Positions 43,595-64,000 of a DNA stretch of 64,000 nucleotides are shown here, piece by piece. The stretch is from Polyangia bacterium. GTDB lineage: Bacteria; Myxococcota_A; Polyangia; Polyangiales; JAUICN01. A program made the translations under genes and the position numbers. Within the stretch, counting starts at the first letter, position 1; the number at the start of each line of letters is the position of its first letter. The notes under the pieces were generated by a model. That model made no database searches, was not told where the DNA came from, and saw nothing but the letters and a program-made list of their open reading frames with translations. The DNA is taken from contig JAUICN010000001.1 of the NCBI GenBank assembly GCA_030427835.1, forward strand, positions 207,929 through 271,928. Reading direction: 5' to 3'.

Positions 43595-44206
43595 TCAGGT
43601 CGGCTTTTGGCCGACGCCCAGCAGGGGACGCATGGTCACGCCACCCAAGGGGACTTCAAACGCGGTTTCGACCTGTGTGTTCTTCAGTCCAGAGGCCGTG
43701 AGTGCCTGTACGATTTGATTGCGCGTCAACCCGTGGGGCTCCTCGGCTTCTCTGTCGAGTTCCCAGTCCCATTGCACGAAGAGCCCGCCGGGTTTCATCA
43801 CGCAAACCAGGTTCGCCACGGCACCAAAGTAGTCGTCAAGAAACGCGCAAACTGAGGAGCAGACCACGAAGTCGAATCCGTCTGCAAGGAGCGTAGGCTC
43901 TTGATGCACGAGCTTTTCAAGGGCCGCAGTTGTTGGGACCACGTTGGTCAATCCAAACCGATCGATTTTTTGACGGAGCCGCTCCACCATCTTCGCCGAT
44001 GTGTCCATCGCAACGATGGCTCCGCACACCGGCGCCAGTTTCTCTGTCAGAAGTCCGGTTCCGCACCCGAAATCCAACGCTCGAGCGCCCGCGAGGGGAA
44101 CCCCACGGGAGTCCGCCAGCCGAGTCAGACATTCAAACGCCGCACGGGAGTATGCCCGCGCACCTTCGTCCTCGTCCCATCCATCTGCGTAGTCGTCCCA
44201 GGTCAT
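43595..44206 (-). CDS. Class I SAM-dependent methyltransferase
   Basis: 203 aa. Motif I is ARALDFGCGTGLLTEKLAPVCGAIVAMDTS near residues 42-71; later VCSSVCAFLDDYFGAVANLVCVMKPGGLFVQWDW shows motifs IV-VI. The N-terminus MTWDDYADGWDEDEGARAYSRAAF is the usual lead. No specific acceptor can be told. Convergent with the VOC gene (3 bp apart). Confidence 0.9.
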   Translation of the reverse strand: MTWDDYADGWDEDEGARAYSRAAFECLTRLADSRGVPLAGARALDFGCGTGLLTEKLAPVCGAIVAMDTSAKMVERLRQKIDRFGLTNVVPTTAALEKLVHQEPTLLADGFDFVVCSSVCAFLDDYFGAVANLVCVMKPGGLFVQWDWELDREAEEPHGLTRNQIVQALTASGLKNTQVETAFEVPLGGVTMRPLLGVGQKPT

Positions 44207-44470: not shown

Positions 44471-45571
44471 ATGACAGTCACAAATCTCGCCGCCGCGCAG
44501 AGCCGCTACAAGGAGATTGGACTCAAGCCCAATCAGTTCTCGGCTTGTTTGCGAGAAGAGGGTTTCATAGCACCGTGGCGTGTGGTGCGAATCGACAGGG
44601 GCTGGTGCTCGTTGGTCGGTTTCGACGAGAACGCGGAGGAGAATGAGCAGCGTGCTCGTACTGCGGATTGTGAGATTGCTGTTGGTGATTGGGTGTGGGT
44701 CTCGGGTATCGAGGAGGATCTTCAAATATCGGAATTTCTGGAACGCAACACTCATCTTCGTAGATCGAACCGAGACGCCCAGGGGCAAAAATGGATCGCG
44801 GCCAATCTCGATACAGTCTTCGTGGTGGCCGCCTTTGGACGCACAGCAAAGCTCGAAGGAAGAGGAATCAACACGCGTCGCATCGAGAGATATATCAGCG
44901 CGGTACGGGAGGGCGGCTCGGATCCTGTTGTCGTTCTCAACAAACTGGACATCACCACGCGTGACAGGGCAGACGCCGGAGACCTGTGCCGTGACCTTGC
45001 AAGCCGACTGGGCACGGTGGTCCTGGCTGTAAGCGCGCACGACAGCGATAGTATGAAAGCACTGCAACCCTATCTCGGCCCCGGTGAAACTCTCGCGTTT
45101 ATCGGCCCGTCTGGTGTCGGAAAGTCGTCGCTGATCAACGCCATCGCGGGCAAACTGGAGTCGGATACGGGGGCTGTCCGCGGCGTGGATATGAAAGGGC
45201 GACACACCACGACCCATAGGCAACTCCTACGAGTTCCGGGTGGTGCACTTCTTATTGACACTCCAGGTATGCGTGCGTTCTCGGTGTATGTCACCGATGA
45301 TTCGGTTCCCGGATTTGAAGACATCAGGGCGTTGGCGCTTGTGTGCCGATTCGGAAATTGCCAGCACACAACAGAGCCAGAGTGTGCTGTCGCGCAAGCG
45401 GTGAGCGATGGAACCCTCGACGAAGACCGACTCGACAACTATCGGGCCATTGCTGGCGATAGACAGCGCACCTCAAATAGGCGCGATCCTAAAACGCGCC
45501 ACGAAGAAAAGAAGGCAGGGAAAAAGCTTGGACGACTCATTAAGCAAGCCAAGGACCTCAAACGACGCTAG
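44471..45571 (+). CDS. rsgA: Ribosome small subunit-dependent GTPase A (RsgA)
   Basis: Circularly permuted GTPase in 30S maturation, 366 aa. G-motif order is permuted as expected: G4 NKLD at 157-160, G1 GPSGVGKS at 212-219, G3 DTPG at 263-266. The N-terminal OB-fold-like part is VVRIDRGWCSLV, and the zinc-finger is CRFGNCQH...C near 292-305. GGAG lies 10 bases before the ATG. No overlap with neighbours. It is the last gene with left-region base composition. Confidence 0.95.
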   Translation: MTVTNLAAAQSRYKEIGLKPNQFSACLREEGFIAPWRVVRIDRGWCSLVGFDENAEENEQRARTADCEIAVGDWVWVSGIEEDLQISEFLERNTHLRRSNRDAQGQKWIAANLDTVFVVAAFGRTAKLEGRGINTRRIERYISAVREGGSDPVVVLNKLDITTRDRADAGDLCRDLASRLGTVVLAVSAHDSDSMKALQPYLGPGETLAFIGPSGVGKSSLINAIAGKLESDTGAVRGVDMKGRHTTTHRQLLRVPGGALLIDTPGMRAFSVYVTDDSVPGFEDIRALALVCRFGNCQHTTEPECAVAQAVSDGTLDEDRLDNYRAIAGDRQRTSNRRDPKTRHEEKKAGKKLGRLIKQAKDLKRR

Positions 45572-45903: not shown

Positions 45904-46554
45904 TTACGCGCCCACCGGTCTCGGGTGCCCGTCTACGTAGCCGATCGGAAGCAGTCCTGGGATCGCTTCGCAGCGGTCTACCACCAATCCCGCGGTCGCC
46001 AGCGCCGCGCTCAGTGAGCCCACGGTGAAACGCCGGTGCCCGGGGAATCCAGTGACAGCCAGGAGGCGGGAGACGAGCCAGGAGAGCCGGGTCTCGTCGT
46101 GGCAGAAGGTCGGGGCCACGAGGATCCCGCCTGGCCGCAGCATCCCGATCAGGGCGGCCAGAGCCGCATTGAGGTCCGGGACGAGGTGGAGCACGTTCGC
46201 GGCGACCACGGCGTCGAAGCTCCCTGGCTCGAACGGGAGCTCGTAGATGTCGGCCTGCCGGCACTCGACGTTCGTAGACCCTGTCGCGACGACCTTCTCG
46301 CGCAGGCGATCGACCATCGCGGCGGCGTAGTCGGTGGCGATAACCGCTCCGGCTGCCTTGGCGAGCACGGGCGTGACCAAGCCTGTTCCCGCCGCGACCT
46401 CGAGCACGCGCGCTCGACCCGACACGGCCTCGGCGATCAGCTCGAGCATTCGTGGCAAGGGTCTGCCGAGCGGTCGCAGCGAGAGGTCATACTTCGCGGC
46501 GTGGCGCTCCCAGTACCGGCGCTCGGAGTCCTGCTTCCGGTCGTGCTCACTCAT
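45904..46554 (-). CDS. Class I SAM-dependent methyltransferase at the end of the metal operon
   Basis: 216 aa. RRYWERHAAKYDLSLRPLGRPLPRMLELI, then motif I SGRARVLEVAAGTGLVTPVLAKAAGAVIATDYAAAMVDRLR, and VVAANVLHLVPDLNAALAALIGMLRPGGILVAPTF (motif IV). Resembles UbiE/PmtA-like enzymes; the acceptor is unknown (lipid, or a metalloid such as arsenite or tellurite, are possible; inference). ATG 46554 overlaps the last eight bases of the transporter gene upstream, so it is the last gene of the coupled metal operon. Confidence 0.85.
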   Translation of the reverse strand: MSEHDRKQDSERRYWERHAAKYDLSLRPLGRPLPRMLELIAEAVSGRARVLEVAAGTGLVTPVLAKAAGAVIATDYAAAMVDRLREKVVATGSTNVECRQADIYELPFEPGSFDAVVAANVLHLVPDLNAALAALIGMLRPGGILVAPTFCHDETRLSWLVSRLLAVTGFPGHRRFTVGSLSAALATAGLVVDRCEAIPGLLPIGYVDGHPRPVGA

Positions 46555-47178
46555 GGCACTCACACTCTTCGCCGCTGAGTCCCTCGCGGCCTTCCTTGAC
46601 GAGCCACGGCACCATGAGCAACGCGGCGACGGGGTCGGCCCACCACCAGCCCGCGATTGCGTTGGCCCCGAGCCCGAGCAACAGCGCGAATGACAAGTAC
46701 GAGCAGGCGAGCGTTTCCTTCGCTTCGGCCCGCAAGGCCGCACTGCCGAGCTCCTTTGCGGCGCGGAGCTTCCCCCAGGACACGAGCGGCATGATCGCCA
46801 ACGAGAGCGCCGCCAGTGCAATGCCGATCACGCTCTCGTCCGGGGCGTCCTGATGCCACAGTGTCCAACCCGCTTGGCCCGTGACATAGGCGGCAAGGAG
46901 AAGAAACGTCGCTCCGATGAACTGGTGAACCCGGTGTTCGATCTGCGCGATGCGTTCACCGTCCGCGCCGCGGTACTCGACCCACAGTCGGTAGAGCATG
47001 ACCACGGCGGCGGCCGTCTCGATGCCGCTGTCCAGACCGAATCCGAGCAGCGCGATGCTGTCGGCGACCGCGCCCGACCACAGAGCCACCACTGCCTCGA
47101 ACACGTTGTAGACCAACGTCGTGCCCACGAGCGCGATGGCGATGCGGCTCCATCGGTTCGAGCTGTCGACCAATGCCG

Positions 47179-47182
<4 letters not shown>
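46547..47182 (-). CDS. CDF-like cation transporter lacking the C-terminal domain
   Basis: 211-aa inner-membrane protein of the cation diffusion facilitator type, with about six membrane spans. The TM2 motif AVADSIALLGFGLDSGIETAAA has the metal-site acidic residues; the second metal site in TM5 is not in its canonical form. The usual cytoplasmic C-terminal domain is missing and a short EECECHE tail with two Cys and one His replaces it. GTG start overlapping the czcA stop (GTGA). Such truncated CDFs often follow czcA and may feed cations to the pump. Confidence 0.85.
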
Positions 47183-50310
<3,128 letters not shown>

Positions 50311-50319
50311 GACGTTCTC

Positions 50320-51513
50320 CTAGTGCGCATGGCCTTCGCCGAGTTCGCCGCGGCTGAGCTCGGACTTGAGGACGAAGGCGCCGTCGGCGACGTAGCGGTC
50401 GCCGCCAGCCAGCCCATGACCTATGCGCGCGAGACCACCGCTGCGAGCCGAGACCGTCACGGAGACTGCGCGAAACTCGCCTTCTTCGTCACCGGGCACG
50501 AAGACGACGGTCTCGTCACCGAGCCGCTGCAGCGCCGAGGTGGCGACGGCTGGGATGGTGTCCTCTCCTGCACTGGCCGGACTGACCGATAGCGTTCCGA
50601 ATGAACCGGGTCGTAACGCGCCGTCCGCGTTGTCGAGAGACATACGGACGGGAAGGGTCCGTGTTCCCTCATCGAGTGCCGGCGCGACGTAGTCGAGCTG
50701 TCCTGCAAAGGTGCGGCCTGGATGCGACTGCAGGGTGAGCGTGGCCCGTGCCCCTTCGTGCACCTGGGCAGCATGCTGCTGGTAGACCCGCCCGACCACC
50801 CACACCTTGGTGATGTCCGTGACCTCAAAGAGCACATCACCTGGGCCCACGACCTCGCCCACGGTTGCGTGACGTGACACCACGCGCCCCGCGATCGGGC
50901 TCCGGATCGTCACCTCACTACCGCTTCCACCCCGCCCGTAGACTTCGAGAGCTCGCTCAGCGGCGGACTGCTCCGCTTGCGCGCGTCGTAGCTCGGCCTG
51001 TGCCTCCAGGTAATGCCGGTCCGCCCCAATGCCTTCGCGTTTGAGCTCCTCCTGACGACGGAAGTTCGCGTCGGCCACCTCGACGTTGGCGCGCGCACGG
51101 GCCGCCTGGGCTCGGGCTTCGCCCAGGGCGACGCTGCGGATCACCGCGAGGGCTTGTCCGGATTCCACCCGGTCGCCCACCGAGGCCGACACACGAGCGA
51201 TCTGACCGGAGACGACCGACGAGACGTGCGCCTTGCGATCGGGCTCGGCCTGTACCTCCGCGGGAACGTCAATTCCACCTGCGCGCGGTACGGCTTCCGC
51301 GGTTGCGATCCGGATGCCGCTTCGTGCGACCGCTTCCGGCCCAATGCGAACGATGCGCTCACCGCCGTGCTCGTCGTGGTGCCCCTCCTCGTGACGTTCA
51401 CCCTGCTCGGCGTGAGAGGACTCTTCGTGCCCGTGTCCGGATTTCTCCTTGCAGCCACTCAAGCCGAGAAGGAGAAGTACAGCGCCCATGGCGATAAGCT
51501 TGAGGTGATTCAT
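50320..51513 (-). CDS. czcB: RND efflux periplasmic adaptor, CzcB-like (copy 2)
   Basis: 397-aa lipoprotein adaptor: [21 protein letters not shown] has lipobox LSGC, followed by a histidine-rich linker ([20 protein letters not shown]...) of about 30 residues that should bind metal ions. The barrel-sandwich and coiled hairpin follow ([52 protein letters not shown]). The C-terminus ends LGEGHAH. ATGA overlap with czcC. Copy 1 lacks the His-rich linker. Confidence 0.93.
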
Positions 51514-52964
51514 GGCTCGGTCCCCTGGTGCACGGGCTCGGGGCCGTGCTCATGCCGTTCGTCAGGCCAGAGGTCGGCGCCGATCGCGCCTTCCAGGTCG
51601 GCGATGGCCTGAAAGTAGTTGCCGTAAGCGTCGAGGGCGTCGGCCTGGATGCGCAGGAACCGTTCGCGTGCGACCGAGACCTGCAGGATGTCGATTTCGC
51701 CCAGCTCGAAGGCGCGCTGAATGAGGCGCAAGTTCTCCTCGAAGCTCGGCAGGATCTCGCTGCCATACGTGCGTACTTGGGCTGCCGACGCGATGACCGC
51801 GGTGCGGTGCTGCTCGATGCGGTTGCGCAGCTGGGAGCCGAAGGCGGACTGCTCGGCCTCGGCGATGTCCGCTTCCGCGCGCGCCAGTGCGCGTGCGCCC
51901 TGGTTGCGCTGCACAAGCGGGATGGGCAATGACAGTGTTCCGAAGATCTGCGTTTCCGGGGGGCCGGCGGGGAACGACTCCCGGTTGAGCTGAACGCCGA
52001 TCGTCGGCTCCGGCCACGCGTCGCGGTCGGCCGCGCGCGTGTTCGCGGCAGCCTCCACCCGAGTCGCGTGCAGCGTTCGCAGACGCGGCTGGTGGCGGCG
52101 AGCTGCCTCGACGAGCGCTTCCGCTGCGGGTGGGTCGCGCGGCGTGTCGAGACGCCCCGCCGGCTCTGGAGGATGAGACGCGGGCCAGCCCGCCAGCGCG
52201 CCGAGCTCGAGGCGCGCGGTGAGGTAGCTCTGCTCGGCGGCGATCTTGGCCACGCGCGCCTGACTCAGCTCGCCCTCGGCTAGCCGCACAGCAAGGGGCG
52301 ACACCTCGCCCGCTCGCAGCTGCCCGCCAGTGATCTCCACAAGTCGCTCTTGGAACGACAGCAATCGCTCTGCGCCAGCAAGCCGCTCACGCGCCACGAG
52401 GGCTCGGTGAAAGGCGGCATGCACATCGCGATGAACCTCCCAGCGCGCTTCGTCCAGCTCGGCGCGAAGGCGATCGCGTGTTCGCTCTGCCGCTTCCAGT
52501 CGGACGGATCGCTCCCCGGCGATCTCGATTCGCTGTGACACCGACGCCGTAAAGTCGACGTGAGTTGAGTCGTTTACGCCAGGCCCCACCCCAACCGAGA
52601 CCTCGGGGTTGTCGGGCAAGAGCGGCGATGCGTCGGCAATGGCAGCATCGCCGAGCCCGATTCGTTGCCTCGCGACTTGCAGGGACGGAGCGTTCCGGTC
52701 GGCGTACGCCAGGATCTGCTCCAGCGACGTCGGCCCCCCGCGCGCAGGATCCGGTAGCGGGACGTCGGGGACGTGTACGGCGTCATAGCCTCCCTGCGGA
52801 GCTGCGAACTCCCCCGCGGTCCGAGGTGTCGGCGTTTGCGCCGATGCGCAGCCTTCGACGAGGAGCGAATGCCCAAACACGCAGAGCGGGATCAGTATCC
52901 TCCATGTACTATTATGGATAGTAGTTGAGCGCGAACGGGGAGGTCGTGAAGTTCGTGTTTGCAT
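51510..52964 (-). CDS. czcC: RND outer-membrane factor, CzcC/TolC-like (copy 2)
   Basis: 484-aa channel of the TolC family. Reading from ATG 52964 (three bases after the M56 stop) gives a signal/lipobox VEGC near residue 40, then the two OEP repeats. However, a BlaI-type operator covers codons 13-21, and a GGAGG at 52899-52903 with possible non-ATG starts follows it, so a downstream internal start, perhaps used when the gene is driven from its own promoter, cannot be excluded. Overlaps czcB by ATGA. Confidence 0.9.
52903..52927. promoter_or_regulatory. BlaI-type operator at the start of czcC
   Basis: On the minus strand: left half CAACTACTA, a 7-base spacer, right half TAGTACATG. This repeats the 9-7-9 architecture of the operator at 54437-54461, with an identical left half and a right half matching at seven of nine positions. 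It lies inside the first codons of czcC. A -10-like CATAAT sits inside it. No good -35 is visible. Confidence 0.65.
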
Positions 52965-52967
52965 CGT

Positions 52968-53999
52968 TCATCCGAGCCCGAGAAGCAGGGCGGCGCGCTC
53001 GATGCTGTGGTGGAAGACGTCGAGCGGGCCCGCTCCCATGAGGTGCGGCGCTACCGCCACGAGGGTGATTAGAGTCGTGACGACGCCGATCGGAGTTCGG
53101 CGCTGTGCGGGACCTGGCCAGCGAGCGGCGTAGCCGAGCAAGAGCTGCACCCGCAGGCGAATGCCGCCGATGCCGTGGCCCCCCAGTGCGGGAACCGAAG
53201 CGGGTGCTCCCGTTGGAGCGGCGACCGAGACGATGCTTCGAGCGAGGGCCAGCGGATCGGCGCCGCGCTGCACGGCGCGCTTGTCGCAGAGGGCCTCCCG
53301 CGCAAAGTGATAGCGCGCCAGTTCCGACGAGAGGATTTTGCCCAGCGGGTTGATGGTCAGCGCGACGTGAGCGACGAAGAAGCGCAACGGGTCGCGCGCA
53401 TGCGCGTGCTCGACCTCGTGGAGCAGCGTTGCCTCGAGCTCGTCGTCGTCGAGGCGCATGACCAGCGCCGCTTCGAGCTCGACCCGCGGCTGGAATAGCC
53501 CGCGGGTGCAGGCGGGCGCCAGCCCCTGCTCGACGACGCGGATGCGCGCCGCAAAACCGGCTAGCGTCAGGTTCTGCTGACAGATGTCCCGTACCCGAAC
53601 GGTCGCGACAGCCCAATCCGCAGCGACCATCACTGGATCGCGAGTCGCTCGTCGATCTCGTCGAGCACGCCGGATGATGCCGTAGCCGAGGATCGAGAAG
53701 AGGATCAGGCCGAAGAGCACCACGTCACGGCACAGCTCCCCGCCGAGGTGGTCGACAACGCACGCGGCCAAGGGTGCCCCTTCCTCGGACTGATGGATCG
53801 AGGCCGAGATGAGCCAGATCAGTGGTCCCAACGTCGGACCGACCACGAGGAGAAACCGCCAGGGGCTCTCCTGAGCTGACACCCGGCTGCCCGACACGGG
53901 GAGCAGAGCAACGGCACTTCGCGCCGCCAGCGTCAGGAGCGGCACCGCCACGAAGAAGACCAACATGGCCCCGACGACGGGAAAGAAGAGCTCGTTCAT
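52968..53999 (-). CDS. M56 family membrane peptidase (BlaR1-like, no sensor domain)
   Basis: 343 aa. Membrane spans near residues 8-30, 45-65 and 92-110, and a late span near 303-320. The zinc-peptidase site is [13 protein letters not shown] (HEXXH at 194-198), with EALCDKRA near 235 as the likely third ligand. The periplasmic penicillin-binding C-terminal domain of BlaR1 is absent. A loop between spans 2 and 3 contains H69, C80, H84 and C90 ([11 protein letters not shown]), so it could sense metal ions (inference). Overlaps blaI by ATGA and precedes czcC by 3 bp. Confidence 0.88.
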
Positions 54000-54421
54000 C
54001 CGCCGAGATCCTTCTTGCGCTTGCGGATGAGGGCCTCGAGCTTGCGAAGTTCGTCGGCGTCAGAGTCCGCCACCTGGTCGACGAGCAGGGAGAGGGCCTG
54101 CTCGTGGCCCAGGCCGGAAAGCGAGCCCAGCAGCTCACGCGCCATCGACTCGGTGAACTCGTCGCGGCTCATGTTCGGCCGGTAGACGTAGCGCTTCCCG
54201 TCTCGCTCGCGATCCAGAAGCCCCTTTTCGTGCAGCCTACTGACGGTGGTCATCACGGTCGTGTAGGCGATCTCCCGCTCGCGCTCGAGCTCGTGCTGGA
54301 CGTCCGCGACCGCGAACTCCTTCCAGCCCTTGCTCCAGACGACCTCCATGATGTCCGCTTCCAGATCGAACAGCGCGGCGCGCAGGCCTTCTTTGTCAGG
54401 GCGGAAGCGGATGCCTTTCAT
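53996..54421 (-). CDS. blaI: BlaI/MecI/CopY family repressor
   Basis: 141-aa winged-helix repressor. N-terminal w[31 protein letters not shown], then the recognition helix region [37 protein letters not shown]. The C-terminal part (residues 78 on) is the dimerisation helix with the [19 protein letters not shown] end. Start at ATG 54421 with GGAGG four bases upstream; a TTG at 54439 would start inside the operator. CopY-like relatives control metal pumps. Cleavage by the neighbouring M56 protease is expected by analogy with BlaI/BlaR1. Confidence 0.92.
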
Positions 54422-54436
54422 GAGTCCTCCATGAGC

Positions 54437-54470
54437 CAACTACTATACGGGGTAGTAGTTGATAGATCAA
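54437..54470 (-). promoter_or_regulatory. BlaI-type operator and promoter of the metal operon
   Basis: Perfect 9-bp arms: CAACTACTA (54437-54445) and TAGTAGTTG (54453-54461), with a 7-base spacer. On the minus strand TTGATC (54465-54470) and TATAGT (54442-54447), 17 bases apart, make a strong -35/-10 that the operator covers. The start at 54421 is about 14 bases after the predicted transcription start, with a GGAGG. The repressor would block its own operon. Confidence 0.75.
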
Positions 54471-54501: not shown

Positions 54502-54702
54502 CTAGCGCCTCCACGGCATCATGCGCGCCCGGTTCACGGCGGCCTGCTTGTCGTGTTCGAGGTCGCGGATGAGGCGGACGAGCTCGCGGAGGCTCTGGAC
54601 GTCGAGAGCGTCGAAGTCGATCTGGTAGCGGCGGCCGGTGGCCCGGGCCGTCTCGGCCCGGAGCCACTCGATGAGTCGCCGCTTGTCGTAGTCGCTGGTC
54701 AT
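54502..54702 (-). CDS. Small phage-module protein (66 aa)
   Basis: [66 protein letters not shown]: a strongly charged, helical protein with heptad-like leucines in the second half. Overlaps the next gene by ATGA (54699-54702). No family recognised. Confidence 0.6.
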
Positions 54703-55280
54703 GCCTGCTCGGTGAAGAGCTGGGCGACCTCGTGCTCGCCGGCGGCGGTGAGGTAGTCCGCCAGCGATTTGCGAAAGAGGTCCATGCGAGTCTTGAGGCC
54801 GAGGCGTTCGCGGGCTTCGTCGAGGCGGGCGACGATCTCGGCCTCCATGCGCAGGGGCAGCACCTTCATGTCGGGGGCCTCGCCGTCGGCGTAGCGCCGT
54901 CGCACCGGGCCGGCCTTGATGCGGCCCTTCCCCGCCTCGCGGATCTTCCAGATCAGGTAGCGGCGGTCGCTCGAGCCGGTGTCGCGCCCGACGACCTCGG
55001 TGTAGAGCTGCTGCAGCTCACGGGCCGTGAGCTTGGTGAGCTTGGGCTCTCCGTTCGCAGTCGCGGGTTCCGACGCGGTGGGCTCGGTCTCCTCGACCGC
55101 GCTGGCCGCCTCGGCGGCCTCCTGCTCCTGGGCCTCAAGGGCCTCGGCGATGCGGCGTAGCAGGAACTTCTTGTTCGGTGACCGCGTGGCCTCGCCGACG
55201 ATGTCGTGGAACCGAGCCTGCAGCTCGGGCAGGCGAAGCTCCTCCATGATGCGCATCCGCTTCTTGTTCTCTTTGTTCAT
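54699..55280 (-). CDS. Phage-module protein with duplicated DUF2924-like motif and RHH domain
   Basis: 193 aa, start ATG 55280 with GGAGG six bases upstream. The motif ([31 protein letters not shown]) at residues 17-47 recurs at about 85-115 ([31 protein letters not shown]), separated by an acidic Ala/Glu/Thr linker. It resembles the DUF2924 pattern seen in phages and mobile elements. The C-terminal 137-165 segment ([37 protein letters not shown]) looks like a ribbon-helix-helix, so it may bind DNA. Confidence 0.65.
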
Positions 55281-55355
55281 TCTTGTCCTCCGGTGTGGTT
55301 GGGCCCGGAGGCTTCCGCCGGACCACCCGGCAGGCACCACCGGGCGGTCTATGTG

Positions 55356-55658
55356 TCAGTCCTCGCGCTTGGCGAGGTGTTTGAAGCAGTCGAGGTCGAT
55401 GGCGCGCGGGTCGCTGGATACGAAGCTGAAGCGCTCCTCCTTCTCGATCCAGGGCTGTACCTCGACCCGGTCGTCTGCCGTCACCCCGCCGCGGCGGGCG
55501 ATGTCCTCGTCGTCGGTGAGGTAGCCGTCGTCAGCGTCCGGGTCGTAGTCGTCGCGGGCCGCGTTCTTGATCAGCGCGATGATGCGGACCTGGTGGCCAC
55601 GCAGATACCGGTGTTCGTTGCCGTGGTAGGTGGTGACCGTGCCGAGCGTCTTCTTCAT
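55356..55658 (-). CDS. Hypothetical phage-module protein (100 aa)
   Basis: [100 protein letters not shown]-like acidic middle and an RHR-type basic start; resembles no family I recognise. GGAGG five bases upstream of ATG 55658. 208 bp without a gene follow upstream (55659-55866), perhaps holding a promoter. Confidence 0.6.
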
Positions 55659-55866
55659 CGCGTCCTCCGTGTCGCCGGGCTTCGTCGCGTCCCGATCGTG
55701 AGGACATACAGGCGTCGCTTTGCGAACAGCTCAAGGCGATTCGGCGCGGAATTCGACCTCTTTTCGGGCGTCGGAAGCTCGCGAGAACTTTGGCGATGTG
55801 GCCGCCAGATGTGGAGCGGGACCTGCATGTTGGCGACGACATCGGCCACATCCGCGACCTCGCCGG

Positions 55867-56103
55867 TCACCGTTCGTGCATGTCCTCGATCGCATCGCGC
55901 AACGCGACGAGGGCGGCCTCGACCTTCACAATGGCTGCGGTCTGGGCCTCGGCGAGCTGGACAATCTTTTCGTGCAGCGCCTTGAGCTCGCGGTCCTTCT
56001 TCTCGTTGATGCGCCAGAAGGCCCAGCCGAGCACGGCCACCAGTCCGTAGGGACCGGTTGCCTGCAGAATCTCGGCGAATGTTGCGAGGCCAGAGGGGTT
56101 CAT
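55867..56103 (-). CDS. Holin-like small membrane protein (78 aa)
   Basis: One membrane segment near residues 14-32 ([18 protein letters not shown]) preceded by a short N-terminal arm, then an amphipathic coiled-coil tail ([38 protein letters not shown]). This is a class III-like holin or tail-associated membrane-protein shape. It overlaps the amidase stop by ATGA, so the pair is a lysis cassette by position. Confidence 0.6.
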
Positions 56104-56846
56104 GCCACGGCCTGCGGCATGAGGTCAGCGAGGTCGACGTGCCGGCGAACGCCTGTGGCTCGGTGAATGGCTTCCTCGTAGGCGATGCACTCGGGCATGC
56201 CGGCCTCGAGCCGCAGCCAGGCGTAGAGGGCCAGCCACGCCCCGTCTGCGTGGTGGAAGTATGTGTGCGCGTAGATGCCGGGCACCCGCTGCTCGCCATC
56301 CGGGATGCGGCTCATGGCGAGGCGCGTCCCGGTGATGCCGCGCCATGCTCTCGGGATCGACAGGCCGTCCAGGTTGCCGCTCGTCAGCAATTGAACGAGC
56401 TGCGTGGTGGCCTCGGCCTGCTCCGGCGTCGGCACGACGTAGCGCCGCTGGTGGGCCCAGGGGGCGTCGATGATGCGCTTCCAAGGGAGCTTCGCGCTCG
56501 CGTACTTCGGGTAGTACGGGTTGACGACCTCGATTCCAACAGACGGTCCGTTGTGCCCGCCCGCGTGGGCGAGCCTGTCGTGGGCGAGGTCGCCATGCTG
56601 GGTGACCTCACCGTCCGGGCCGACGATGAGCTGCACGCCGAGCTTGCGCTTGAGCAGCACCTTCACTGTCGAGGCGACGCTGCGCGTGACCGTCTCGTGG
56701 AGAATGACCTCGTTGACCACGCGCCCGCTCCTGTCTCGGCCGGCGAAGCGCGTCACCCCGAGGTCCCGAAAGTTGCGAACGCGCAGCCCTGCGGGTGCTG
56801 CGGCGTCCGCCCCGGCCACGATGAGCGTGTCGGTGGCCTCGGTCAC
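56100..56846 (-). CDS. N-acetylmuramoyl-L-alanine amidase (endolysin)
   Basis: 248 aa, Amidase_2 fold cleaving the lactyl-amide bond of peptidoglycan. Zinc/active-site residues: [10 protein letters not shown] (H50), [20 protein letters not shown] near 110-130, and [11 protein letters not shown] near 205-215. GTG start at 56846, inside GTGA overlapping the next gene upstream, with GGAGG eight bases before it. With the holin-like gene it forms the lysis pair of the phage module. Confidence 0.85.
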
Positions 56847-57280
56847 TGTCGTCCCTCCTCGGGCGCGGCCACGGGTTGCTCGACGGCACGCCGAGCGCGC
56901 AGACCCTTCGAGAACCAACGCTCGCGCTTCTCGGTCGACAGCGGCTTGGCGAGGTTTGCTGGGATGCCGCCTTCCGCGTCGCGCAACGCCGCGTTGACGC
57001 GTCCTCGCGTGACCAGGTCGGCGTGCAGCTCGTCCACCAGCATGCGATGCAGGTGCCCGAACGAGCCCTGCGAAGGATGCTCGGGCTCGTCATCGGGCGC
57101 ACGCACGAGAAACTCGACGGCACCGCAGGCCGGGCATGGCGGCATCGGAACCAGGCGACCATCGACCTGCTGGTCCCGAACGACACCGACTTCGAGGTCG
57201 TCGATGAGAATGCGGTGCTCGTCGTCGCAGGCTTCGCAGCGTTGGAGGACGTCGGTGGTAGTGACTTCGTGGATGGCCAT
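56843..57280 (-). CDS. Zinc-ribbon protein of the phage module (145 aa)
   Basis: Residues 15-18 (CEAC) and 49-52 (CPAC) make a likely zinc ribbon. The second half is charged helices ([26 protein letters not shown]...) and ends [12 protein letters not shown]. No family recognised. GAGGAACA is immediately before ATG 57280; overlaps the amidase by GTGA. Confidence 0.65.
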
Positions 57281-57289
57281 TGTTCCTCC

Positions 57290-59194
<1,905 letters not shown>

Positions 59195-59320
59195 GCGCTG
59201 CCCTCGGGAGATGGGTCTCCACAGGGGCAAAGCGCCGGGTGGCTGGGCTGGGGACAGCACGGAGGCCCATGCCGGAATGAGTTATGTTTCCGGCGGTTCG
59301 GGCGGTAGAACCGTCTGGTC

Positions 59321-59878
59321 ATGAGCGACTGGAATGCAGAGACCGCCGAGTGGTACGCCGCCAAGTACGGCGAGTACGCCACCAACCGCCTGGCGGCCGA
59401 CGCCACCGAGGTGAGTCCCGATGCCGTCGTCGTCGATGTGGGCTGCGGAACGGGCTCGGCCCTGCGGCGAGTCGCTCCCCGCGTGCCCGATGGGACGCTC
59501 ATCGGGCTCGACCCGATCCCGCGAATGCTGGAGATCGCAAGGGAGCGGGCTTCCGAGGACCCGAACGGTCACCGCATCGAGTTCCGCGAGGCGCCGGCAG
59601 AGCGGCTCCCGCTCGCAGATGACTCCGCAGACCTCGTCTTCGCTTTCGATTCGATCGACCACTGGCAGGACAAGGCCGCCGGCCTCCGCGAGATCCGTCG
59701 CGTGCTCCGACCAGAGGGACGCCTCGTTGTCGTCAAGGACGGTGGTCTTCCTGGTGGCGCCAAGGCCAAGCGGGAGTTCCTTGCGGAGCTCGACGGTTCG
59801 GGCCTCACCGTGATGCAGGAGACAAACCTGGCCGAAGACAACGTCACCTGCACGATGTGGGTCTGCGGCGTCGCGTGA
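59321..59878 (+). CDS. Class I SAM-dependent methyltransferase on the opposite strand
   Basis: 185 aa. Typical N-terminus DWNAETAEWYAAKYGEYATNRLAADATEVSPDAVVVDVGCGTGSALRRVAPRVPDG, with motif I VVVDVGCGTGSALRR, and VFAFDSIDHWQDKAAGLREIRRVLRPEGRLVVVKDGG. ATG 59321, 127 bp upstream of the divergent fibre start; CGGTTC/GAACCG at 59294-59313 makes a hairpin just before it. It stands inside the tail operon but reads the other way and stops 3 bp before the tail-I gene end, a moron-like cargo. Target unknown. Confidence 0.88.
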   Translation: MSDWNAETAEWYAAKYGEYATNRLAADATEVSPDAVVVDVGCGTGSALRRVAPRVPDGTLIGLDPIPRMLEIARERASEDPNGHRIEFREAPAERLPLADDSADLVFAFDSIDHWQDKAAGLREIRRVLRPEGRLVVVKDGGLPGGAKAKREFLAELDGSGLTVMQETNLAEDNVTCTMWVCGVA

Positions 59879-59881
59879 AGC

Positions 59882-61222
59882 CTATCCGTGCAGCTCGGTG
59901 GTCACGCCCAGCTCGCTGGAGCCGAGCTCCCAGTGGTCGATGAAGGCCGGCGGCGAGGGCTCGACGAGCTCCACGAAGTGGGTGTGGGCCGGCTTGAGGT
60001 AGTCGACGATGGCGCGGATCTGACTGCGCTCGGTGGCGCTGAGGGGAATGTCAACCTCGACGTCGAAGGCGTAGCGCGCGAACTGGTCCGAGGGGCCCAG
60101 CTCCCAGTCGACGCCCAGCTCGGACTCGCCGAGCACCAGGGTGGTTCCGTTGAACGGCGTGATGGCGGTGATGTCGATGCCGAGGAAGAAGCGGATGGCG
60201 TTCTCGATGCCGACCGCCGTGCCTTTCTGCCGGTACATCTCGACGAGTACCGAGGCCAGCCGGCGTTTGTCGAGCTCGCCGAGGTCGAAGGGAAACGGGT
60301 TGCCCAGCTCGTGGAGGATGAGATCGAGGAAGCCCTCCGGGGCCCGCTCGATGTCGAAGATGTCGCTGAAGCGGTCGCCTTCGGCGAGCAGCAGATCGAC
60401 CGTTTCCTGAAGACACGCGATGAAGCGACGCAGATCACCGGTGACGTCGTCGCGGCGGTTGTGCCGCGGCAGCATCGACCAGAGGTCGAAGCGGCGCAAT
60501 GCCGGACGCGGTGGTCGGTACCCGGTGAACACTGCAGCGTCGTCAGGGGCCACGACCGGGTTCTCTTTGGCGTCTTCCACCCCGCTCACGATCACCCGGT
60601 AGCGCACGTCGGGCGTCAGCTCAGTGTTGAGCATGACCCGCACCGCTGCGCCATCGCTCTCGGCGTCCACAGCCACGACCGGAACCGCGGGCAGGTCGAG
60701 CGTCTCGAAGACGAAGCCCAGAGGGTCGGTGACCATGACGGGCTCGTCGAAGCCGACGCGCACGACCTTGGGCGCGACAGCCTGCGCGCCGACGACCTTC
60801 GGCGGCGTTCGGTCTTCGGCAACGAACGAGTACGTCTCGTCGAGGGCATGGGTGCCACCGACTGTCGCCGTGACGGCCCGAACGCTGACGAGCGCCTGGC
60901 TCGCGAACGGCATGGTCGGATCGAGGACGACGCGTAGCGTGTCCGCGGTCTGCTGCACGTCCGAACGCGGTCCGTCGAAGCCGGGCTTGAGCTCCGGTGA
61001 ACCGCCGCCCTCGAAGGCCAGCTCGCCGTCGACGAGGATGCGCGTGACGGCCCGGTCGATGCCGTCGGGGCCCGGGTCGACGATGTCGAGAGCGATGAAC
61101 CACTCGAGCGGCACGCCCATCTCGCCGGGACCGGGGTCGCGGTTGATGAGGATCGGACGATCACCGGCGAGCTGGGCCGCGACCGTGTCTACGTAGAGTC
61201 CGGGTAGCTCGAGGTTCGCCAT
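59882..61222 (-). CDS. Phage tail protein I-like, with N-terminal Ig-like domains
   Basis: 446 aa. The C-terminal 200 residues (from about [66 protein letters not shown]...) match the P2 gpI/tail I family, with [11 protein letters not shown] and the closing [16 protein letters not shown] segment. The N-terminal 220 residues have two Ig-like (Big_5/SbsA-like) segments, including [15 protein letters not shown] and [19 protein letters not shown]. The fusion is unusual for gpI; it may extend host contact or tail-shaft assembly. Confidence 0.75.
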
Positions 61223-61231
61223 CGCTGCTCC

Positions 61232-61630
61232 CTACGGCACCGCCAGAAGCTCGAGGCGAACGGCGACGGTGTGAAGGCCTGCGAGCTTGGACACGTTGGC
61301 GGCCAGGTCGCTCACCACCCGGGTACAGCCGGGTTTGCAGGTCGCCGTCGCCACCTTGGTGCCATCGACCAGCATGGCGACCTCCCAGGCGAGACCGGCC
61401 GACAGCGTCTTGGGTACGCGCAGCCGCAGGGCCGCGCGCACGAGGTCCACGTCGGTGAGGTCCGTCTGCTGCGACACCTCGGCGCGGTCCCCGGGCTCCA
61501 GCTCGAAGTAGCGTCCGGGCTCGTCCTCGCCCAAGACGAAGACGTTGTCGCCCGACGGCACCGGAGCGTTCAGCGGTCGGATGCGCCCTTGTCCGAGGCC
61601 GAGCCTGCTCCTGAAGGCGTCGAGCTCCAT
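61232..61630 (-). CDS. Phage-module structural protein (132 aa)
   Basis: Reads [58 protein letters not shown]..., with strand-rich C-terminus ([37 protein letters not shown]). TGATG overlap with the next gene upstream. No family recognised; context says tail structure. Confidence 0.6.
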
Positions 61631-62325
61631 CAGACCTGCCGCAGAAGCTCGAGGTGATCGAAGTAGCCGCGACGGGTAACGTCCGCGACGGACATGCCGA
61701 AGCCGCCCCGCCCCGAGGTGAGCGGCTGGCTGCCGGAGTTGATGCCCAGGTGGTCGTCGATGAACTCGACCATGCCCGGCACAGCCTGCCAGTCCGGCGG
61801 CGAACCGAGCGAGTGCGCGCCGAGGTCGTTGCGCAGCACCTTGAGCACGACATCGCCGTTGTCGTTCACGATCGCGTCGAGGCGCAGGTGCAGCCAGGTG
61901 CCCTGGGAGAAGCTCTCGCCCGAGGCGAGCAGGACGTTCGGGCCCTCGGAGTCGGGGATGCCGACGGCGACCGCACCCTTGCGCAGCACGACGCGATGCG
62001 GGTCGTCGTCGGACAGCCCCAGCAGGTACGCGGTGTCGTTGACCGAGTTGCCCTGGCACGAGAGGAACATGAAGGGCGAGAAGCCGGTCGGGCCGCCACC
62101 GGGACCACGCTGAACGCAGCCGCGAATCGAGGCGCCCTTCGCCATCGGGGCGAAGTCGACGAGGTTGCAGAACAGGCCCACGGCTCCCTGGACTGCCGCG
62201 AGCGAGTTGAAGGCGAACAGGAAGCTCCCGCCGCCCGGTGGCCGCGCGATGCCGGCTGTCACGCCCCGGTCCACCGTGGCGATGTCGAGTCCGTCGTTGA
62301 GATAGGTCCAGTCTGCTTCGGCCAT
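61630..62325 (-). CDS. Phage-module structural protein, LamG-like (231 aa)
   Basis: Opening [40 protein letters not shown] and the strands [40 protein letters not shown] suggest a concanavalin A/LamG-like jelly roll. GAGGAGCAACC precedes ATG 62325. TGATG overlap with the 132-aa gene. Confidence 0.6.
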
Positions 62326-62334
62326 GGTTGCTCC

Positions 62335-62883
62335 TCAGATCGTCGTCGCCGGTGTCCAGGCGTTCTCGAAGTCCTCGTCCGCGTCGCCCCCACCGTCGAA
62401 GAGGGCCGCTTGCGAGGTGACCGAGGCCCACAGCCAGGCGAAGGCTTGGTTGTTGCGCCAGGCATCCTCGAAGTCCTCGCGAGGCTCGCCGTCGAAGATG
62501 CCGGTGGTGGCCGTGATCGCGCTCCAGTCGAGCGCATACGGGACGTTGCTCCAGCCGTCCTCCATGTCCTCGACGGCGCCGCCGCCAAAGGGCGCGGTGA
62601 TGACCTGACCCGACGGCAGCTCGGTGAGGTAGAGGTCGTTGCTCCACGCCTCCTCGAAGTCTTCACGCCCCTCGGCGAGCGGGTCGAAGAGCGCGAGCGC
62701 GAGGCTGCCGGGTGCAAACTCGGTGAGCAGCTCGAACCAGCGCTCGAAGCCCTCCCACGCCTCTTCCGGCACAGGCCCGAAGCCGGCGATGCGCTGGGCG
62801 GCGACCGAGGTCGTGAGCGTCCAGTGCTCGGCGAGGCCCGGCTGGGCGCCGGCATCTTCGAAGCTCGGGTTGAGGATGCCCAT
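62335..62883 (-). CDS. Repeat-containing tail protein (182 aa)
   Basis: About four units of 33-35 residues, each with ED(F/M)E(D/E)(A/G)W ([32 protein letters not shown]) preceded by ALFDG-like and followed by S/N-N and aromatic segments. Highly acidic. ATG overlaps the J-like stop (1 base). I know no family for it; context says baseplate/tail. Confidence 0.7.
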
Positions 62884-64000
62884 CAGAGCAGCCCTCCCGT
62901 GTCGCCGTCGATCAGCGTCACCGTGCCGAGCACCGGGAACTCCTTGATGCCGAGGCGGATGTCGGCCGGCAGCGAGTTGAGCTTCAGGTCGCCTTGCCGG
63001 TCGCCGATCTTGCGAACGCCGTCGGTGTCACGGATGACGTTGAAGACGTCCGACCAGGCGATCTCGCCGACCGGGTTGCCGTCGGCGTCCTTGATGTTGA
63101 AGCCGAAGTCGACGAGTGGGTTCGGCGTGCCGTCGAGCTCGCTCACGCGGAACATCGCCGCGAGGTTCTGCTTCACCCGCTCGCGGACCGTCGCTTTGGC
63201 CGCGCCCTGGCGCAGGTAGATGCGGGCCTCGACATTGACGGTGCGGTACACCGGGTTCTGCACCGAGGCCTGGAAGGTCAGCGTGCTCGGGTAGACCACG
63301 GTCACTTGCTCGAGCACCGCTTGCTTCAGCGCTGCGGTCGGCAGCCCGCCACCCTGCGGGATGACGTAGAGCACGCCGCTGTTCTCGGCGACGGTCGAGT
63401 CCTCGTTGGAGGTGAGCATCAGGGCACGTGCAACACCGGGCACCCGCCGTGCATTCACCTCGAAGTCCTCGCGCGTGACGGTGCGGGTCAGCGTGCGGAG
63501 GCTCTCCGGGGCGAGAAGCTTGGCCGAGGCAACGCTCTGCCGGTCCGAACCTCCCGAGGCAGGCTCGGGATTGGTGACCGCGACCTGCACCGGGCGACCA
63601 TGGGCGTCGTTGAACACGCCTTCGATGACCACGAGGCTGCCGGCCTCGACGTTGCCGCCGGCACCACCGCCGGTCTTGTAGGTCGCGCTGATCGTTCCCG
63701 AAGGCGGCGCGCCGCTGGTGCCGTTGCCGAAGCGCACCGTCGCGCGGTCGTTCTGGTCGACGAGCACGAGGAAGTGGCGGTCGTTGGGCCCCGACCCGAG
63801 CAGGCTCTCCTCCTCGACGTAGGTGCCGTTCGCTGCTGAGACGGCCGCCGAACCATCGAGGTACGGCGTGCGGTCCAGAATGATGTCGAGTCCCGCGAGC
63901 CCCCGGGCGTCGAAGAGCTGGGAGTGGGTCTGGGAGTTCTCGACCACGCCCACGGCCGACGGCGGATCGGCGCCCGCCGGGATCAGGACGTCAGCGAGCA
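62883..64000 (-). CDS. Phage baseplate assembly protein J-like (5' part beyond the window)
   Basis: Open to the window edge (no stop upstream, frame [22 protein letters not shown]...), so the true start lies to the right. 373 residues are visible. Recognised by the baseplate J pattern: [17 protein letters not shown] and [21 protein letters not shown], then [12 protein letters not shown]-like [12 protein letters not shown] and [30 protein letters not shown]. Baseplate wedge protein of a contractile tail. Confidence 0.85.

Follow-up and report, generated by a model that had tools for sequence, protein, structure and literature searches.

A BlaI/M56 repressor-protease pair with two conserved operators linked to a heavy-metal efflux operon in Myxococcota

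In the BlaI/BlaR1 and MecI/MecR1 systems of staphylococci, a winged-helix repressor is encoded in an autoregulated operon together with an M56 membrane protease that carries HEXXH and EXXXD motifs on an N-out four-helix fold (PMC9834060). A metal-responsive pair of this kind is PetR/PetP of Synechocystis, in which PetP, a BlaR1-like M56 membrane protease, removes the BlaI-family regulator PetR in the presence of copper (PMC7896320, PMC12292863). The CopY/TcrY regulators belong to the same repressor fold family and control metal export operons, in some species through two operators (PMC7253601). Here we analyzed a 64,000-nucleotide stretch of a Polyangia bacterium genome (GCA_030427835.1, contig JAUICN010000001.1, positions 207,929 to 271,928 of the forward strand; hereafter the window), in which genes for a BlaI repressor and an M56 protease are followed by those for a complete CzcCBA-type pump of the resistance-nodulation-division (RND) class. 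The initial annotation had proposed that the BlaI/M56 pair drives CzcCBA as a metal-responsive switch. Control through two operators is strongly supported by the conservation of gene order, sites, and promoter, while the response to metal is suggested by the sequence comparisons described below. We therefore read the locus as a probable autoregulated, proteolysis-triggered metal resistance operon, in which BlaI and M56 would control CzcCBA through both operators, and place the probability of this reading at roughly 0.7.

The locus shares with the staphylococcal systems the repressor family, the protease motifs and fold, and the autoregulatory layout. However, its M56 protein ends about 20 residues beyond the last membrane helix and thus has no penicillin-binding domain as beta-lactam sensor; moreover, it is linked to a heavy-metal pump, and its second operator lies within coding sequence. 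With PetR/PetP it has in common a BlaI-family regulator and a BlaR1-like M56 protease, which is proposed here as well to respond to metal by removing the regulator. PetR/PetP, in contrast, acts on petE, petJ, and two additional genes in a plastocyanin/cytochrome c6 switch rather than an efflux pump, responds to copper sufficiency, and includes a regulator that both represses and activates. CopY senses metal via C-terminal CxC motifs, and metal binding instead of a protease is described as its means of regulation (PMC7253601), whereas the BlaI considered here is devoid of cysteine; furthermore, the cop box (TACANNTGTA) differs from the operator consensus across the related clusters, CTACKA-N7-TMGTAG. 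The pump itself resembles CzcCBA and ZneCAB as a tripartite heavy-metal efflux (HME) system with a divalent-type DFGxxxDG motif, ZneA being the nearest solved relative of its permease. In Cupriavidus metallidurans, however, most such efflux genes are under two-component systems (PMC10127602) and not under BlaI/M56.

Both sites that the initial annotation had matched to each other, one at blaI and one in czcC, were recovered where it had placed them (Table 1). When up to 3 mismatches were allowed, they were the only matches in the window, compared to 0.00 expected from 100 shuffles, and a search for the CTACTA-N7-TAGTAG core (6-7-6) with at most 1 mismatch yielded these two sites alone in the whole genome (3.32 Mb, 98% complete). 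The same genome encodes a single BlaI and a single M56 protein, both at this locus. The two-site observation is thus real and far above chance. The promoter elements that had been described as overlapping the blaI site are likewise present on the minus strand, so that blaI carries an inverted-repeat putative operator on its own promoter, as is characteristic of autoregulation in the BlaI/MecI/CopY family.

Table 1. Genes, operators, promoter elements, and candidate functional residues of the locus, given in window positions.
Feature	Position	Strand	Description
Operator 1	54437-54461	.	25-base perfect palindrome CAACTACTA-N7-TAGTAGTTG (9-7-9), upstream of blaI
-35 element TTGATC	54465-54470	-	17-base spacer to -10
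-10 element TATAGT	54442-54447	-	within operator 1
blaI	53996-54421	-	repressor, PF03965 domain, 141 aa, no cysteine
M56 membrane protease gene	52968-53999	-	343 aa; BlaR1 fold without penicillin-binding domain; 4-base overlap with blaI
M56 codons 69-90	53730-53795	-	predicted periplasmic loop with H69, E72, C80, C90 (profile, model)
M56 catalytic motif HEVEH (194-198) codons	53406-53420	-	M56 profile
M56 codons 330-334	52998-53012	-	predicted periplasmic tail with H330, E334 (profile, model)
czcC-like gene	51510-52964	-	outer membrane channel lipoprotein, 484 aa; ATG at 52964; 3-base gap after M56 gene
Operator 2	52903-52927	.	2 mismatches to operator 1; inside 5' codons of czcC, about codons 13-21
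czcB-like gene	50320-51513	-	adaptor, 397 aa; His-rich N- and C-terminus; 4-base overlap with czcC
czcA-like gene	47179-50310	-	heavy-metal RND permease, 1043 aa; motif DFGLIVDGSVVMVEH; 9-base gap after czcB
CDF-like gene	46547-47182	-	cation transporter, membrane domain only, 211 aa; 4-base overlap with czcA
Methyltransferase gene	45904-46554	-	SAM-dependent, last overlapping gene; 8-base overlap with CDF-like gene

A protein search over 379 genomes of the phylum revealed a BlaI subfamily at 41–64% identity, and in nearly all fetched loci with a contig of sufficient length, the genes were arranged as blaI, M56, outer membrane factor, membrane fusion protein, and RND permease. Further members were supplied by a second, named genome collection and originate from Myxococcales, Polyangia, Kofleriaceae, Bradymonadaceae, Lujinxingia vulgaris, and one Binatota metagenome-assembled genome (MAG), while the closest relative (76%) was found in a MAG labelled Gemmatimonadetes. 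Altogether, 55 non-redundant related clusters, nearly all from Myxococcota, were compared, and the order blaI-M56-czcC-czcB-czcA recurs among them. A weight matrix was derived from the operator 1 sites alone and applied in a leave-one-out manner. It placed operator 1 at 13 to 100 bases before blaI, and in nearly all complete clusters it detected a second site at approximately +1455 to +1630, where M56 and czcC meet (chance expectation 0.03 per locus). Since the matrix contained no operator 2 sites, the latter was found independently. The initial annotation had made its proposal depend on finding the site in other BlaI/M56/RND clusters, and conserved it is: operator 1 is present in 53/55 clusters and operator 2 in 47/52 that could be tested. 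Moreover, a strict promoter-plus-operator pattern matched 10 times in the 379 genomes, always upstream of a blaI gene of these clusters, and a reversed control gave 0 matches. BlaI relatives below approximately 50% identity were also found outside these groups, in phyla such as Chloroflexota and Zipacnadia; no RND gene was found near them, and the site occurred in some of them only.

Some clusters deviate from this arrangement. In a Bradymonadaceae cluster (L069 and L106), an extra stretch parts M56 from czcC, and the start of the displaced czcC has an operator on either side, at +2505 and +2585 relative to the start of blaI; in L069, the matrix scan found these two sites in place of operator 2 in its expected zone and no operator at blaI. 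Lujinxingia and a close relative (L043 and L045) have an additional, third site that resembles the operators (CACCTACTACCCCTCATAGTATGTG, score 21), located at +2823 relative to the start of blaI and close to where the adaptor gene begins.

The two operators differ in their surroundings. A sigma-70-like pair scoring at least 9/12 was found at operator 1 in 34/53 loci (2.2 expected), and a TTGACA-like element lies upstream of it in 32/53 clusters (4.5 expected); in several relatives, TTGACA even runs directly into operator 1, the operator itself being the promoter spacer. The same scan near operator 2 showed no enrichment (4/47, 2.8 expected), and neither did a scan of the 200 bases upstream of it (4/47, 3.2 expected). 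Instead, operator 2 is located within the open czcC frame in 41/47 loci, usually about 30–37 bases past the start codon, where one frame of it reads T-T-I-x-x-S-S (TTIxxSS) of the czcC signal peptide. That the site is a mere by-product of a conserved signal peptide was considered and rejected on the basis of codon usage: its codons are ACT in 35/38 and AGT in 37/38 cases, while ACT and AGT make up only 5% of the Thr/Ser codons in RND genes of the same loci. As such rare codons are kept, it is the DNA word itself that is conserved. The position within czcC codons and the lack of a promoter signal render an ordinary promoter operator unlikely, and position and codon evidence favor a role as a roadblock or in a DNA loop.

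In bla/mec systems, the structural genes are classically preceded by a second operator. By analogy, operator 2 could govern a separate internal czcCBA promoter, with regulators and pump forming two BlaI-controlled transcripts, and both the 6 clusters without an open czcC start upstream of operator 2 and the two sites flanking the displaced czcC of L069 would fit this arrangement. We nonetheless consider it unlikely, given that promoter-like sequences are clearly enriched at operator 1 but not within the 200 bases before operator 2, and that most copies of the latter lie in an open reading frame.

The family scans back every gene name of the locus, including matches to OEP, HlyD, and Cation_efflux, except for M56, whose Pfam match falls below the gathering score (24.1 vs 31) and whose assignment is settled by its motifs and predicted fold. 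The czcA-like permease clearly exceeds the cut-off of TIGR00914 (CusA/CzcA, HME RND; 1258.7 vs 701.45 bits), and its gene is neighbored by those for an OEP protein and a CzcB-type adaptor. The copper methionines of CusA, which we take to be positions 573, 623, and 672, are replaced by Gln, Leu, and Glu, so that the permease lacks the CusA-type Cu(I)/Ag(I) signature. Its fourth-helix motif is DFGLIVDGSVVMVEH, with similar DFG-D motifs in most relatives, and the adaptors of most related clusters are His-rich. The pump is thus of the heavy-metal class, and a divalent rather than a copper/silver substrate is likely.

The blaI product was assigned to the Penicillinase_R winged-helix family (PF03965) with 98.4 bits (cut-off 22.6), and its profile matches the solved structures of BlaI and MecI. 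By comparison, it remains below the cut-off for CopY/TcrY (TIGR02698; 67 vs 122 bits). No cysteine is conserved across its relatives either, and direct metal binding by BlaI in the manner of CopY was rejected for this reason; metal sensing would thus be expected in M56.

The M56 protein contains the gluzincin motifs H194/E195/H198 and E235/D239, and both HEXXH and EXXXD are kept in the profile of 30 cluster M56 proteins. An AlphaFold2 model (mean predicted local distance difference test score of 88) has BlaR1 as its best fold match (Foldseek probability 1.00, E 0.007; Z 13.5, root-mean-square deviation 6.8, 239 residues). From the topology of BlaR1 (PMC9834060), the C-terminal tail and the loop that follows helix 2 are predicted to face the periplasm. 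Within the pump-linked cluster proteins (n = 30), H330 is conserved in 30/30, C80 in 27/30, and E334 in 27/30, and the exact combination of C80, C90, H330, and E334 (C/C/H/E) in 22/30. It occurs in 0/20 M56 proteins from BlaI loci without RND genes, in which the catalytic residues are intact.

To our negative controls belonged 20 divergent BlaI loci of the same phylum, 13 of which proved to have a downstream RND gene. An RND linkage unique to this BlaI subfamily was therefore rejected. The M56 proteins of the divergent pump-linked loci have loops such as DHCGVHDHHAHLC and DHCxxHDHHxHLCxxH and tails such as PLHHALETLLG, and C80, C90, H330, and E334 are kept in most of them. H69, E72, and H319 were also considered as sensor residues, being conserved in the subfamily, but are not kept in these divergent proteins, which narrows the candidate set to C80, C90, H330, and E334. 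Furthermore, the complete permeases of the divergent loci exceed the TIGR00914 cut-off, except for that of L178 (543 vs 701 bits), and the M56 protein of this locus, the sole tested partner of a non-heavy-metal RND permease, lacks the C/C/H/E set. The M56 proteins of L176 and L177, two loci without an RND gene, lack it as well. The C/C/H/E set thus goes with heavy-metal pumps, an association that constitutes a strong lead rather than proof, as the loci are few and related. We propose that M56 is a minimal metal sensor whose protease would remove BlaI.

The M56 proteins of other loci vary considerably. Those of L176 and L177 are very long (approximately 800 and 850 residues), with proline-rich C-termini and none of the periplasmic Cys/His residues. 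In 5 Aquicultor/Actinomycetota loci (L111, L118, L120, L121, and L126), BlaI/M56 pairs occur without an RND gene, the M56 protein has a cysteine-rich tail at or near its end (e.g., GSCGMGPECAAENYECCK), and several loci have operator-like sites near blaI and just past M56; these pairs are possibly another metal-sensing variant. In Zipacnadia/Armatimonadetes loci (L117, L142, and others), M56 tails end in HCAAE or (F/Y)CAAE, no RND gene is nearby, and operators are located 104–154 bases before blaI in several cases.

Instead of metal, M56 might sense envelope stress, a cell-wall product, or the redox state of its two cysteines, with the pump as output only. Known M56 partners do sense beta-lactams, C80 and C90 could form a disulfide, and the signal of PetR/PetP is copper and not a metal of the Zn/Co/Cd/Ni group. 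However, the missing penicillin-binding domain, the co-occurrence of the Cys/His/Glu set with heavy-metal pumps together with its absence from L176, L177, and L178, and the His- and Cys-rich loops of divergent members make a non-metal signal rather improbable.

In the proposed metal-triggered operon, BlaI dimers would occupy operator 1 in the absence of a signal, covering the promoter of the whole operon, and BlaI on operator 2 inside czcC would block RNA polymerase that leaks through. As a result, BlaI and M56 would be made in small amounts, but hardly any pump. In M56, which would span the inner membrane, a surplus of divalent metal of the Zn, Co, Cd, or Ni class would be bound by C80, C90, H330, and E334 of the periplasmic loop and tail, and this would activate the cytoplasmic zinc-protease domain. 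Cleavage of BlaI would then free both operators, and CzcCBA would export the metal. Thus, binding of BlaI to the operators, metal as the signal, and proteolysis of BlaI are what we infer from the conserved sites, the BlaR1-like fold, and the residues associated with the pump. Bound repressors that halt elongating RNA polymerase are known from other families, namely the Kpn2I C-protein and LacI (PMC6237814, PMC4132739). Neither belongs to the BlaI family, and an intragenic roadblock-type operator 2 is the least certain step of the model, for which we see about even odds.

Loops of the Lac type can involve an operator that lies within a gene. BlaI bound to both operators could similarly close a loop of approximately 1.5 kb and thereby tighten repression at the first promoter. 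The spacing of the two sites is fairly constant, and looped repressors block transcription well (PMC5477534). Yet this distance follows from the nearly fixed lengths of two genes, and in L069 both sites lie at czcC with none found at blaI, so that we regard a loop as quite improbable. Finally, a chance palindrome beside a conserved signal peptide, with no regulatory tie to the pump, can be dismissed: signal peptides can keep similar residues, as in the encoded TTIxxSS, but the expected number of sites is zero, rare codons are retained where synonymous ones dominate, and the non-coding operator 1 is conserved across families.

Several points weigh against the proposed metal resistance operon. 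Operator 2 is not in its expected zone in 5/52 testable clusters, L069 among them, and a cryptic or non-sigma-70 promoter may exist before czcC. The cleavage site of Staphylococcus aureus BlaI, N101-F102 (PMC9834060), aligns to Leu-Val in the BlaI of the window, and cleavage at that place is therefore not predicted by identity. As the clusters share a common descent, the residues and sites conserved among them do not count as independent events; operator 1, however, is non-coding and located at variable distance from blaI. Furthermore, our literature search found no experiment on any member of the cluster.

With regard to the genomic context, the 7 genes from blaI to the S-adenosylmethionine (SAM)-dependent methyltransferase form a minus-strand run in which neighbors overlap, or are separated, by no more than 9 bases. 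The initial annotation had taken them as one unit, and this contiguity is borne out; however, the last two genes are not conserved members of the cluster. The gene similar to cation diffusion facilitators (CDF) is an operon member by overlap in the window, where it is the sixth gene, but was rejected as a conserved member, as it is seen near only a few relatives and is often divergent; in L061, L062, L065, L097, and L101, it is divergently oriented just upstream of the blaI cluster. A methyltransferase gene was found downstream of some related clusters. In the window, an rsgA-like GTPase gene (44471-45571) lies between two oppositely oriented genes on the minus strand (43595-44206 and 45904-46554), each encoding a separate SAM-dependent methyltransferase. 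Upstream of blaI (54699-64000, minus strand), genes resemble a phage-tail-like element (tail protein, amidase), placing the pump operon at the edge of this element.

The initial annotation had called a BlaI/M56 pair that drives a full CzcCBA unit a little-described metal-responsive switch. Given the known copper pair PetR/PetP (PMC7896320), the principle has a precedent and is less novel than assumed there. As to the pump-linked form, in a literature search for BlaI or M56 together with RND, czc, or heavy metals, which left subscription papers largely outside its reach, this unit was not found described. The pump-linked, two-operator form of BlaI/M56 thus appears new. More tentatively, at somewhat less than an even chance, the clusters may represent an undescribed, widespread class of one-step transmembrane metal sensors, in which an M56 protein, with the periplasmic C/C/H/E site of loop and tail in place of the antibiotic sensor domain, would read periplasmic metal and directly destroy the BlaI that represses a heavy-metal RND pump, and an operator in the signal-peptide codons of czcC would silence the pump.

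While heavy-metal RND pumps are usually discussed together with two-component or other classical regulators, in many members of the phylum they appear to be controlled by the protease-repressor principle known from penicillin resistance. If true, this would be the second metal-responsive BlaI/M56 system after PetR/PetP, and it would provide concrete candidate ligand residues as well as a natural example of an operator embedded in coding sequence. Moreover, caution is warranted for myxobacterial genes annotated as penicillinase repressor or BlaR1, which may concern metals rather than antibiotics.

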